22,876 nucleotides of DNA, taken from a virus. Position 1 is the first letter of the stretch; every line of letters begins with the position of its first letter. Location: positions 1 through 22,876 of IMG/VR virus record IMGVR_UViG_3300022690_000256; one strand, 5' to 3'. Below the pieces are notes generated by a model. It did no database searches. It was not told where the DNA came from and saw only the letters and a program-made list of their open reading frames with translations. Made by a program: the position numbers and the translations under genes. Positions 8,000 through 22,317 of this stretch are shown here, one piece after another.

Positions 8000-8308
8000 C
8001 TATTCAACTATCCCATGGATGTCAGACTCTTTCATCGACACTAACTCTTCATCATTGATAACTCTCACGTACGTCCCCGCGTGCATAGAGTATAACACCT
8101 TGTCACCCGGTTTAACAGTAAGGGGAATAACCTCCTTGCTTCTACCGTCGTACACACCCGGACCAACTGCAATCACCTCACCCTCAACAGGTCTTTCCTT
8201 TGACTTATCCGGGATAAGGATGCCACCCGCTGTCTTACTATCTCTTTCTTTTCGACGTATCAATACGTTGTCGTGTAGTGGTCTGAAACTTTTATTTGTT
8301 TTTGTCAT
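8000..8308 (-). CDS. groES: Co-chaperonin GroES (Cpn10)
   Basis: This 102-residue protein shows the whole Cpn10 pattern: FRPLHDNVLIRR, mobile loop TAGGILIPDKS at residues ~26-36, EGEVIAVGPG, then VKPGDKVLYS and the C-terminal strand. The mobile loop is the GroEL-binding segment. No GroEL gene is in the window, so it probably works with host GroEL, perhaps to fold phage proteins, as phage-encoded co-chaperonins such as T4 gp31 do. ATG 8308 overlaps the preceding stop as ATGA; an in-frame ATG at 8326 is an alternative that would lengthen the overlap. It sits directly before endonuclease I in the same operon. Confidence 0.92.
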   Translation of the reverse strand: MTKTNKSFRPLHDNVLIRRKERDSKTAGGILIPDKSKERPVEGEVIAVGPGVYDGRSKEVIPLTVKPGDKVLYSMHAGTYVRVINDEELVSMKESDIHGIVE

Positions 8309-8772
8309 TGTGTTATACTTTCCCATATTTCCATCATCTCGCTGTATTCACATAGGCGTATCAGTGCTATACGTTTTATCTCACTTGAGTAGCAATCTTC
8401 CTGTCCGTCCTGTCCTTTAAATTGAAAATCTGTAGTTCCATCATCTCCACTAATGTCGATACTCACCTCATCTCTAAATGGAGACTCAAGGTTGTACCAC
8501 TGCGCAGTCAATTCGATACAAATACGATCAAATGAATAGTCGCTAATAACTGTATCAGCCAAGACATAGTACAAATATGAATGGACAAGATACTCTTCAA
8601 TTAAATCGTAACCATCGCTACTCACCATACCCACCTGAATCAAATGGTGCATCAAGATGTGGTCCAGCTCGTGCGCAACACAGCTCGTACTTGATACAGG
8701 CATTGACAACATCACTGATTGGTGCATCTCTGCATTGAACAACACAAGGGAATCCGTGTCGAGCACACTCAC
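8305..8772 (-). CDS. Putative metallopeptidase-like protein with HExxH-type motif
   Basis: This ORF contains CVAHELDHILMHH (about residues 31-43), an HExxH zinc motif, followed ~20 residues later by a Glu-Glu pair (DLIEEYLVHSYLYYVLAD). This His-Glu-x-x-His plus downstream acidic helix recalls small phage proteins with VHExxH...EExxAY whose activity is unproven. The C-terminal half is acidic. The frame opens with GTG 8772 right after an in-frame TGA, and the first 48 codons overlap the upstream gene in another frame. If translation began at the later ATG 8628 the zinc motif would be lost. Either GTG 8772 (poor ribosome site) or a +1 shift from the upstream frame is needed to include it. It ends with an ATGA overlap onto GroES. 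Confidence 0.55.
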   Translation of the reverse strand: MSVLDTDSLVLFNAEMHQSVMLSMPVSSTSCVAHELDHILMHHLIQVGMVSSDGYDLIEEYLVHSYLYYVLADTVISDYSFDRICIELTAQWYNLESPFRDEVSIDISGDDGTTDFQFKGQDGQEDCYSSEIKRIALIRLCEYSEMMEIWESITQ

Positions 8773-8935
8773 TCAACGCAAGACTGCTGATCGGTTCATA
8801 GTCCAGATTCCATATCCCCACACGTACGGGAAGATCGGTACTTGCTGCGTTGGCCCGGTGTAGCGCAACGTACCCACACAACAAGACAAGAAATATTAGT
8901 ATAAACTGTACTACTTCTACCTTTGTTATTTTCAT
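8618..8935 (-). CDS. Putative secreted Cys-rich small protein
   Basis: This 105-residue protein begins with a clear Sec signal peptide: basic MKITK, hydrophobic VVQFILIFLVLLCGYVAL, and a likely ANA|A cleavage near residue 31. The remainder is short and rich in Cys (seven in all, six after the signal). Its last ~50 codons (8618-8772) overlap the HExxH ORF in another frame, and in that part the other frame looks more protein-like. It may be a genuine exported peptide, or only its N-terminal part may be real, with the downstream ORF as continuation after a frameshift. Start ATG overlaps the preceding stop as ATGA. Confidence 0.5.
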   Translation of the reverse strand: MKITKVEVVQFILIFLVLLCGYVALHRANAASTDLPVRVGIWNLDYEPISSLALSECARHGFPCVVQCRDAPISDVVNACIKYELCCARAGPHLDAPFDSGGYGE

Positions 8936-9327
8936 GATGTTGTATCCCCGCGTTCAACCAACTCTTGTTCCATACACGCCTTTCTTATAGGACTAAGATC
9001 ATACTCCTTGAGCACTGCAATGAGATGGTTAGATGTCATCTCTGAAATATTTTTAAACTGAAGAGGTTCATCTCCATTCTTCCCATACGTACCCCAAGTA
9101 AGGATATCACGTTGAACACTGTGTGGTTCGGTATCGTATAGACATAAACTTTCTGGTGGTTCTTTGTTGAGGTTCATCCGTATGTAATCAAGACCACCGT
9201 CTACCATATATTCTTCACCGTTAGCATCCATGTATGTGACAAAATCATGTCGGTGTTTACTTTCAATCACTGTGCCATCTGGTGTGCGCCAAGCGTTGCG
9301 AATTAATTGACGTGTTTCTTTACCCAA
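8932..9327 (-). CDS. Conserved phage protein, unknown function, TTG start
   Basis: This 131-residue protein has a pattern I recall from many phage proteins of unknown role: NGEEYMVDGGLDYIRMN, then LTWGTYGKNGDEPLQF, then a C-terminal HLIAVLKEYDLSPIRKACMEQEL. The N-terminal TPDGTVIESKHRHDFVTY also fits that family, so translation should begin well before the first internal ATG. The only suitable start is TTG 9327, with AAGGATAGG ~6 bp upstream formed by the end of the preceding gene. Probably a small globular regulatory or accessory protein; no catalytic residues can be named. Confidence 0.65.
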   Translation of the reverse strand: MGKETRQLIRNAWRTPDGTVIESKHRHDFVTYMDANGEEYMVDGGLDYIRMNLNKEPPESLCLYDTEPHSVQRDILTWGTYGKNGDEPLQFKNISEMTSNHLIAVLKEYDLSPIRKACMEQELVERGDTTS

Positions 9328-9330
9328 TTT

Positions 9331-9471
9331 TTACCTATCCTTTATTGATGTCATCATCACATACTCCGGCACTATACGTCTAACAAGACCATGCCGCTTA
9401 CAGAAGTATGCCCTTAACCTTTTATTCTTGGTCAGCTTACGACTGCCACATTTAGGACAAGGTGCTGTCAT
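9331..9471 (-). CDS. Mini zinc-binding protein, 46 aa
   Basis: This ORF reads MTAPCPKCGSRKLTKNKRLR with a following YFCKRHG. CPKCG plus a later C-x(2)-H is a short zinc-finger-like set, and the protein is strongly basic, so nucleic-acid binding is plausible. GGGAG stands 9 bp before ATG 9471, an excellent ribosome site, and the next gene begins 3 bp after its stop. It is the first gene after the structured intergenic region (9497-9696), whose last stem-loop lies ~30 nt upstream of the ribosome site; that RNA could control this gene. Confidence 0.6.
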   Translation of the reverse strand: MTAPCPKCGSRKLTKNKRLRAYFCKRHGLVRRIVPEYVMMTSIKDR

Positions 9472-9496
9472 ATTGTTTATCTCCCGTATAAGAGGG

Positions 9497-9696
9497 GAAG
9501 TTTAGGGGGAGTTGGCTCAGCCCTTTAAGCCTCACCGCCGTTTCCCCCTTAACTCCACGTTTGTCGACTAAAGATTCGACCCGGTACACTAGTGATGTGT
9601 TAGCTGCGAACACCCCACAGGGTTGAGCAGTAACACTCTCGCTAGTGAGTTAGACCGCTCTGTGAGGTTAAAGGGCACCAGTCTCACGGTCTAAAT
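9497..9696 (-). ncRNA. Structured intergenic RNA candidate with loop-loop pairing
   Basis: The 244 bp between the 5'-3' exonuclease stop (9716) and the 46-residue gene (9471) hold no credible ORF but four stem-loops. SL1 pairs 9499-9509 with 9544-9554 (10 of 11 pairs, five of them G-C). SL2 pairs GTCGA 9563-9567 with TCGAC 9576-9580. SL3 pairs 9597-9607 with 9627-9636 (10 pairs, one bulge). SL4 pairs TTAGACCG 9650-9657 with CGGTCTAA 9687-9694. The loops of SL1 (GCCCTTTAA, 9520-9528) and SL4 (TTAAAGGGC, 9668-9676) are perfectly complementary over 9 nt. Leftward transcription is assumed from the flanking genes; complementarity alone cannot give the strand. It does not fit tRNA, group I intron or a terminator (no U-tract). 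Could be a 5' regulatory leader or a free RNA. Confidence 0.5.
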
Positions 9697-9715
9697 TTCT
9701 AATTATTCTATTCAA

Positions 9716-10486
9716 TCAAGCCCAATTACTCGCTATCTCTTTCGTCGCATATTCTGGTGAGTCCCTGAAGTGAACAGGCGCTCCCTTTATCATAAGTAAA
9801 TCGTAGTTCTCATTGAACCTATCACGTGCCTTATCCCCGAACTCTTCATTGTACGCGCAAACAACCTTAGCGTACAGATGACCTTCACACTCTATTCCAT
9901 CTAGTATCTTTCCTGCCTTCACCGGACCAACCCGGTAGATACCTTTGATGTTATCAGTAGCATCACCAGTTAGCATCTGTGTCCAGAAGTGACGTTGTGC
10001 CTCCCACCTTGTGACGTGGTAGATTTTATATCTCTTCCAGTTATAGTGCCAACCGGGAATCATGTCAAGGTCTTTGTCGATGGTGCATATTATTGTCCTG
10101 TTACCTTTTTGAAACTTACCCATCCAGTCGTCAGCTTCCATGCCGGTGGATATCTCTCCCTCCCATTCACTCAACATATACTCCCGTATCATGTCGAAGT
10201 GTTTTGGTTTCTCTTTATCTTTTCTATTTCCTTTATACAGATGAGTCGTTGCAACTGTGTATCTGAAATTATTATCAGAGGTATCGCTAAAAAAGATACG
10301 AACACTATACAGATCAAGAGTATTGCGAATGTTGAGAAGCATGTTGTCAACAATAAGACATGCCCCATCTTCGTCAGATTCCTCTTTATCCGCGATGTAT
10401 CCACACGCATAAAGGATAATATCTCCATCGATCAATCCAATCCTGTCTTTATGTGGTGGGCTGTACCTGTTCACAATGTTACTCAT
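9716..10486 (-). CDS. 5'-3' exonuclease, T7 gp6-like (FEN/PIN fold)
   Basis: This 256-residue protein shows the 5'-nuclease metal sites: LIDGDIILY (Asp20, Asp22), MEADDWMG, CTIDKDLDMIPG and GDATDNIKGIYRVGP. The last is the helix-three-turn-helix DNA-binding element of FEN/T5-exonuclease proteins. By analogy with T7 gp6 it removes RNA primers, degrades host DNA and makes single-stranded ends for recombination. It is slightly shorter than T7 gp6 (~300 aa). The ATG follows the stop of the 76-residue gene by 1 bp. A promoter-like sequence lies inside the gene at 10040-10068. Downstream comes the structured intergenic region. Confidence 0.9.
   Translation of the reverse strand: MSNIVNRYSPPHKDRIGLIDGDIILYACGYIADKEESDEDGACLIVDNMLLNIRNTLDLYSVRIFFSDTSDNNFRYTVATTHLYKGNRKDKEKPKHFDMIREYMLSEWEGEISTGMEADDWMGKFQKGNRTIICTIDKDLDMIPGWHYNWKRYKIYHVTRWEAQRHFWTQMLTGDATDNIKGIYRVGPVKAGKILDGIECEGHLYAKVVCAYNEEFGDKARDRFNENYDLLMIKGAPVHFRDSPEYATKEIASNWA
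10040..10068 (-). promoter_or_regulatory. Promoter-like sequence inside exonuclease gene
   Basis: On the minus strand TTGACA (10063-10068) and TATAAC (10040-10045) are separated by 17 bp. It is entirely within coding sequence, lacks the TG-extended -10 of the stronger promoters, and could be a chance match. If active it would transcribe toward the structured RNA region and the genes from 9471 leftward. Confidence 0.3.
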
Positions 10487-10487
10487 A

Positions 10488-10718
10488 CTACACAGTACCT
10501 CTTAGTTTCTTTAACCTTTGACGCGCTGACTTAACGCAGAAATCGGGAAGGTTTTCAATAGCCAGTAGCCCTGTCTTGCAGGTTGGGTGACGTTCAAGAT
10601 GACGAATGAGTTTATACGCCTTATTCTTTTCACGAGTATCGTTGTTGAAGTATGCAGTATACCCCGCCTTGTGTCTCGTATTCTGTCGTTGGTTTGCCGC
10701 ACTCATTCCACCACTCAT
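10488..10718 (-). CDS. Small basic phage protein, 76 aa
   Basis: This Lys/Arg-rich protein (KAGYTAYFNNDTREKNKAYK, then LIRHLERHP and a basic C-terminus SARQRLKKLRG) resembles small phage proteins that I recall with a GYxAYxxxxRREKNK-x-RRLxRHLRRHP pattern, of unknown role. The basic helical character suggests nucleic-acid or protein binding. The first ATG (10718) is chosen, with a modest GGATA upstream; a second ATG four codons in has GGTGGA too close. It lies between the second structured intergenic region and the exonuclease gene. Confidence 0.6.
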   Translation of the reverse strand: MSGGMSAANQRQNTRHKAGYTAYFNNDTREKNKAYKLIRHLERHPTCKTGLLAIENLPDFCVKSARQRLKKLRGTV

Positions 10719-10746
10719 GTTATAATGTATCCCTATTCATTTAATT

Positions 10747-10890
10747 TAAAGGTGGGGTCGTGTGGGACTTATGACATCGCCATCCTGCCCACAATTTGGT
10801 GGCTAACCGACGAGAAGTTATCTCCTACGACCCCACCCCGCGCTTAACCTTGGTAGCCTTACAATTATGAGGGGACATCCAAGGTCATCC
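10747..10890 (-). ncRNA. Second structured intergenic RNA candidate (junction plus hairpin)
   Basis: The 179 bp between SSB (ends 10898) and the next gene (starts 10718) hold no credible ORF. An 11-bp perfect helix pairs GGTGGGGTCGT (10751-10761) with ACGACCCCACC (10827-10837). Inside it are GTGGG/CCCAC (10762-10766 with 10788-10792), a weak GGT/ACC hairpin near 10798-10808 and GAGA/TCTC (10812-10815 with 10821-10824), giving a multi-branch junction. A separate hairpin pairs ACCTTGG (10847-10853) with CCAAGGT (10879-10885). On the minus strand the closing helix is followed by UUUAAAUU, but the 65-nt enclosed part makes a simple terminator unlikely. The two loops share CAGGATG...GATGTC-type sequence. 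Function unknown; leftward strand is assumed from the flanking genes. Confidence 0.45.
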
Positions 10891-10897
10891 TGTTCAC

Positions 10898-20973: not shown

Positions 20974-21581
20974 CTATTCTCTATTTGCTCTCACGATACC
21001 CATGATGTATGTCTTGTGAGATTTCCACCATTCCAGCGACTGTTCACCTTCCATACTAAGTATCTCTTTATCTGTGAAATTTTCCCATTCTTTAAACGTG
21101 TGGAATTCACAACCTATTTTTAAATGTCTATCTGTGATTGCGATACTGTAACGTAAACCACTAACTTGTACAGGTGTTACCCTCACATCACCGGAGACCC
21201 TCGCATCACCGGAGACCCTCGCATCACCGTAGACCCTCGCATTACCGTAGACCCTCGCATTAACGTAGACCCTCGCATTACCGTAGACCTCCGCATTACT
21301 GTAGACCTCCGCATTACCGGAGACCCTCGCATTACCGTAGACCCTCGCATTACCGTAGACCCTCGCATTACCGTAGACCCTCGCATCACCGGAGACCTCG
21401 CATTACCGTAGACCTCCGCATTACCGGAGACCCACGCATCACCGCAGACATTATTTGTTTCTTCAACCCATCCACCAATATCTCCGATTTTAATCTGTTT
21501 AAAATTAACAATTGCCTTAATGCGAAACAACTTTACACCAAACAGATTAACCTTAGTTTCAGAGGTTAGTTTAAAATTCAT
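20974..21581 (-). pseudogene. Hexapeptide-repeat beta-helix protein split by a 1-bp deletion
   Basis: Start ATG 21581 (GGGAG upstream) reads a conserved N-terminal domain (FKLTSETKVN, KIGDIGGWVEETNN) and then repeats of V(Y/S)GNA(R/E). In the third repeat unit (21397-21413) one G of the minus strand is missing, so the reading frame shifts into RGSTVM repeats and stops at 21183 after 132 residues. The original frame continues through twelve further VYGNAR-type repeats, then VTPVQVSGLRYS and an intact C-terminal domain (IGCEFHTFKEWENFTDKEIL, EWWKSHK) to 20974. Without the gap it would be one ~202-residue protein of a family common in phages and enterobacteria (YdcK-like beta-helix). It could be a real mutation, phase variation by repeat slippage, or a sequencing error. 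The C-terminal part could be translated separately from GTG 21186. Confidence 0.7.
21181..21449. repeat. Array of fifteen 18-bp coding repeats
   Basis: Fifteen tandem units of the type CCTCGCATTACCGTAGAC (plus strand) span 21181-21449. Fourteen are 18 bp; the unit at 21397-21413 is 17 bp. Some units have CTCCGC instead of CCTCGC. The minus strand encodes one hexapeptide turn per unit. Units 9-11 are identical, so recent duplication or homogenisation is likely, and copy number can vary by slippage. Confidence 0.9.
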
Positions 21582-22153: not shown

Positions 22154-22185
22154 AATCAAGTTACCTTCACGGGTTAAATACTAAT

Positions 22186-22294
22186 GTTTAAAATTTGAGA
22201 GTGATGCAGAGGGTTTGTTTTATAGTCAACCTTATCTCTGTATTTGTGACTAGTGACTAGTTAATCTTTCAACAATCACTCTCAAATTTTAAAC
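22186..22294 (-). promoter_or_regulatory. 20-bp perfect inverted repeat (5' leader hairpin)
   Basis: Positions 22186-22205 and 22275-22294 are perfect reverse complements (20 bp, AT-rich GTTTAAAATTTGAG...), with a 69-nt loop. The loop carries nested complements (CAGAG/CTCTG, GGTT/AACC) and a GTGACTA tandem repeat. In the leftward RNA predicted from 22318-22346 the hairpin begins ~17 nt after the start and lies before pentapeptide protein 2. It could stabilise the 5' end, be an RNase III site, or regulate translation. No flanking target-site duplication, so not a clear mobile element. Confidence 0.55.
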
Positions 22295-22317
22295 GTCAAT
22301 CTGGATACACTAGTACC

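Follow-up and report, generated by a model that had tools for sequence, protein, structure and literature searches.

The DNA analysed here, referred to below as the window, is a single IMG/VR virus record of 22,876 bases. Its minus strand carries a T7-type replication module that reads, in order, primase-helicase, DNA polymerase, Gp2.5-like SSB, 5'-3' exonuclease, a 244-base gap, a zinc-ribbon ORF and a hypothetical gene, and that continues with a gene matching the NAD-ligase N-terminal-domain profile, GroES and a phage endonuclease. The best named relatives of the polymerase come from Siovirus and other marine podophages (~35% identity). The genes around the gap are all co-directional. Directly upstream is the exonuclease (9716-10486, minus strand; phrog_107) and directly downstream is the zinc-ribbon ORF of 46 aa (9331-9471, minus strand). 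The gap itself spans positions 9472-9715 of the minus strand, from the exonuclease stop to the zinc-ribbon start, and it contains the structured element discussed below. GC content is 0.51 at 9497-9701, compared with 0.42 in the whole window.

Farther along the module, the ORF at 8305-8772 (minus strand, 155 aa) has a match (Nlig-Ia, E 4e-9) to the N-terminal domain of NAD-dependent DNA ligase, and no ligase catalytic domain is seen alongside it. The GroES co-chaperonin (8000-8326, minus strand; phrog_3188) is phage-encoded and lies within the replication operon. The neighbouring gene at 8932-9327 has phage relatives, but in other contexts. Elsewhere in the window, the translation of the ORF at 21183-21581 (minus strand) contains a run of near-identical short repeats (VMRGSTVM...).

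The initial annotation described 244 bp of gene-free DNA between the exonuclease and a small zinc protein, and this description holds. When the gap is scored against the codon usage of this phage, the result is negative in six of six frames, and six nearby genes score positive. This rules out coding in the gap. Known classes of RNA were not recognized either. Covariance models from Rfam 15 gave no match at the gathering cut-off in the window, and the element produced only sub-threshold chance matches, at E values of up to 5. ARAGORN predicted no tRNA or tmRNA gene, and no intrinsic terminator (a GC-rich stem followed by a T-run) occurs in 8500-10800. Neither a promoter nor a terminator of its own is predicted at the ends of the element.

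Four hairpins in the gap

On the minus strand, which is the sense strand of the operon, the gap folds into four hairpins (A-D, all minus strand). Hairpin A (9650-9694) has a 9-bp stem (9686-9694/9650-9658) and a 27-nt loop that holds the first of two complementary stretches, the 5' kissing arm. Hairpin B (9587-9647) is irregular, with 22 bp distributed over five short helices, and is a candidate site for a double-strand nuclease. Hairpin C (9563-9580) has a 5-bp stem (9563-9567/9576-9580; GUCGA/UCGAC) and an 8-nt loop. Hairpin D (9497-9556) combines stems of 6 bp (9497-9502/9551-9556) and 7 bp (9504-9510/9543-9549), 13 bp in total, with the 3' kissing arm located apically. A weak fifth hairpin on the same strand (9483-9485/9494-9496) covers the Shine-Dalgarno sequence GGGAG (9481-9485), which lies 9 nt ahead of the zinc-ribbon AUG. 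This fold agrees with an earlier proposal of four stem-loops, and the first and last stems as originally placed are contained in hairpins D and A.

The minimum free energy of the gap on the minus strand is -82.8 kcal/mol, compared with a mean of -66.0 (sd 4.4) for dinucleotide shuffles (z -3.79), and none of 200 shuffles folds as well. Comparison with shuffled sequence of the same composition had been suggested as a check, and by this measure the above-chance fold of the gap is confirmed. In a scan of the minus strand with 200-nt windows, 9497-9696 ranks second of 113 (z -3.69; scan mean 0, sd 1.1). The plus strand has just as strong a fold (z -3.97), largely because the same inverted repeats are present in it. 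Since the two strands are alike in this respect, the sense strand is assigned from gene direction alone.

What if these inverted repeats act as DNA? They could signal replication or packaging, or derive from the insertion of a fold-back element. The equal folding of both strands fits with this scenario, as do the outer arms, which form an imperfect inverted repeat. The gap is also missing at the corresponding place in relatives, as an insertion would be. However, there is no second copy in the gaps of the window or in the collections searched, the GC skew does not change near 9.5 kb and no clear target-site duplication can be read by eye at the ends. A DNA-level role is considered distinctly unlikely.

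Complementarity between the outer loops

The loops of the outer hairpins had been noted to contain perfectly complementary 9-mers. The 9-mers GCCCTTTAA (9520-9528) and TTAAAGGGC (9668-9676) are indeed exact complements, and their pairing can be extended to 15 bp. In the minus sense, GCCCUUUAACCUCAC (9676-9662) pairs with GUGAGG-C-UUAAAGGGC (9535-9520), with one bulged C at 9529. In the predicted ensemble the first 8 nt of the 5' arm (9662-9676, minus strand), which are eight of the nine positions of the 5' 9-mer, are nearly unpaired. The 3' 9-mer, part of the complementary 3' arm (9520-9535, minus strand), is predicted to lie partly within a small apical helix of hairpin D.

Of 5000 loop shuffles, 11 gave a loop-loop duplex as good or better. 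When the gap was shuffled 500 times, a 9-mer inverted repeat with a spacing of 100 nt or more appeared in 10 cases. The loop pairing is unlikely by chance but not overwhelmingly so. Keeping both arms free costs the local fold ~10.6 kcal/mol (-71.9 versus -82.5 kcal/mol), and the isolated arm-arm duplex is worth -22.5 kcal/mol. Therefore, the loop-loop contact is energetically possible, before a kissing penalty of unspecified size. A tertiary contact between the loops is plausible but unproven.

Perhaps the element is a stand-alone phage non-coding RNA of ~200 nt, cut from the operon transcript or transcribed beside the operon, and possibly self-associating via its complementary loops. The loops of the phi29 pRNA pair over 4 nt between molecules, and there too one RNA carries two mutually complementary loops. 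However, phi29 is another type of phage with a different gene neighbourhood, and the element described here has no Rfam match. The phage RNAs ROOL and GOLLD are stabilised by kissing loops (PMC12286853), which provides a second example of phage-borne structured RNAs in which such loops matter. These RNAs are much longer (GOLLD often exceeds 800 nt), often lie near tRNA islands and form Rfam families, whereas the present element is far shorter, is not beside tRNAs and matches no family. Its compact multi-hairpin fold, complementary outer loops and raised GC content are what a free RNA might be expected to have, but the lack of a predicted promoter or terminator at its ends and of any Rfam relation makes this reading rather unlikely.

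Relatives of the element and of its surroundings

Searches with blastn in phage and plasmid records and with exact DNA patterns in IMG/VR found no homologue of the element. A covariance model built from it found none in ~2.4 Mb of fetched loci either, its best outside match having an E value of 0.23. The exact pattern of the kissing-arm pair gave 4 matches that have no fold in common and are located either inside open reading frames or next to a tRNA. The single-arm pattern gave 48, all unrelated. Searching by way of the neighbouring proteins had a similar outcome. Single-protein scans of IMG/VR with the exonuclease and polymerase revealed no relative, nor did a scan of genome_contigs with the primase, and the alignment-based collection scans gave only remote relatives among the matches listed, beyond which closer or near-identical ones may exist. 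An exonuclease motif pattern did retrieve further exonuclease relatives (the best at 43-44%), none of them with the RNA; in genome_contigs it produced only 7 chance-looking matches from unrelated organisms.

Among the matches listed, 96 relatives have a detectable exonuclease. In nearly all of these the exonuclease stop and the start of the next ORF lie no more than a few bases apart. Long post-exonuclease gaps in two loci (L137 and L160) are probably only apparent, as they look like open reading frames. The zinc-ribbon gene and the element occur together in no relative among the matches listed. With no homologue found and the exonuclease-adjacent gap absent in relatives, the element looks lineage-specific. 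One might go further and picture a lineage-specific phage RNA of ~200 nt that is closed by pairing of its two outer loops over up to 15 bp, and that works as a discrete RNA or as a switch in the replication-operon mRNA. In this complete form the proposal is doubtful, if still worth entertaining.

How unusual is a strongly folding gap in such phages? Intergenic gaps were surveyed in 128 sequences, namely the window and the loci of 127 relatives. Over 162 gap-strands the mean z is -1.2 (sd 2.0), and the stretch holding the 244-base gap comes about 13th. Strongly folding gaps are thus not rare in phages. Given this, and given that no homologue was found, the claim in the initial annotation that stems and loop pairing strongly signal a selected tertiary RNA fold overreaches. 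What is supported is a structured, non-coding element that belongs neither to the tRNAs or intrinsic terminators nor to any Rfam family.

The survey also bears on whether the fold of this non-coding gap arose by chance or under weak constraint, with the loop complementarity a coincidence. Structured gaps are common in these phages, and the loop match, with a chance frequency of ~0.002-0.02, was picked from 22 kb. Nevertheless, a z of -3.8, the failure of all 200 shuffles to fold as well and the second place among 113 scan windows speak against chance, and in so tightly packed an operon a 244-nt gap in this position is unusual in itself. Of the readings considered, this one is placed last, as very unlikely.

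Other gaps are structured as well. The one at 10719-10897 (minus strand) separates the SSB gene from a small ORF and has a 13-bp closing helix (10827-10839/10749-10761; z -2.25), and the gap at 22160-22310 (minus strand) has a 20-bp perfect inverted repeat (22275-22294/22186-22205) around ~70 nt (z -4.88). Neither has an Rfam match, and no motif common to the gaps of the window, such as a promoter, was found. The gaps of remote relatives include long AT-rich near-perfect inverted repeats, with z down to -12 (L155:1043-1193, L113:1863-2020, L114:2190-2509 and L135:664-793). Those of L155, L113 and L114 are upstream of the primase gene.

The element is a candidate orphan RNA. If it is real, an uncultured phage lineage, in which the replication proteins share only ~35-44% identity with known relatives, would gain an unclassified structured RNA, at a position with virtually no gap in relatives. 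The lineage may even punctuate its operon with RNA structures, with three such gaps in the window.

Possible roles in the replication transcript

The preferred reading is that the element acts in cis, as an intercistronic structure within the leftward replication mRNA, with a role in processing, stability or insulation. This is favoured tentatively, as a possibility that falls somewhat short of probable. It builds on the position of the element, its non-coding nature, its above-chance folding and its loop complementarity, all of which are observed. With transcription as the genes are drawn, the element would be transcribed between a polymerase/SSB/exonuclease block and a block comprising the zinc-ribbon, hypothetical, ligase-domain-like, GroES and endonuclease genes. 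The transcript would form four hairpins, and pairing of the first loop with the last may clamp them together. This structure could shield the upstream mRNA segment from 3' decay, and hairpin B might supply a double-stranded processing site, perhaps of the RNase III type. In this hypothetical sequence of events, the two gene blocks would be processed or would decay at different rates.

As modelled, hairpin B has the hallmark of an RNase III site, an irregular intergenic RNA duplex of about two turns. T7 uses intergenic RNase III hairpins for mRNA processing, each site being a single hairpin of ~60 nt. The likeness lies in irregular hairpins between co-directional phage genes, with hairpin B extending over about two helical turns. 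The difference is that the present element has four hairpins and a possible loop-loop contact, and that its processing is a prediction. Indeed, four hairpins plus a long-range pairing exceed the needs of a simple processing site, and this counts against the mRNA-punctuation reading. So does the plus strand, which folds as well as the minus.

The main rival to mRNA punctuation is that the element is a 5' regulatory leader of the zinc-ribbon gene. It would then be a translational operator, or something riboswitch-like, and might for example allow autogenous repression by the zinc protein. The element ends ~25 nt ahead of the AUG and is followed by a good Shine-Dalgarno sequence, which is mostly paired in the predicted ensemble. 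There is also a precedent, in that the zinc protein gp32 of T4 blocks translation of its own mRNA, binding to a pseudoknot that lies 67 nt ahead of the start codon (PMC3014915). In both cases a leader with tertiary-type pairing, here a predicted one, precedes a replication-module gene for a zinc protein in a phage mRNA. However, the T4 structure is a short pseudoknot before an SSB gene whereas here a 200-nt multi-hairpin element follows an exonuclease gene, and the present element is not known to bind a protein. In addition, blocking the 5' arm of hairpin D, or both kissing arms, hardly changes the predicted accessibility of the Shine-Dalgarno sequence in a model with no bound protein. This is a mild argument against a simple translational switch. 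Together with the absence of any listed relative that has both the gene and the element, it leaves the leader reading unlikely, though deserving of attention. The two further structured gaps on the leftward strand fit general mRNA punctuation better than one gene-specific switch.

In its N-terminal part, the zinc-ribbon protein is similar to the end of a match to a phage 3'-5' exonuclease subunit (L261:7189-7293; 43%, E 7e-6), hinting that the small ORF encodes a detached zinc-ribbon domain.
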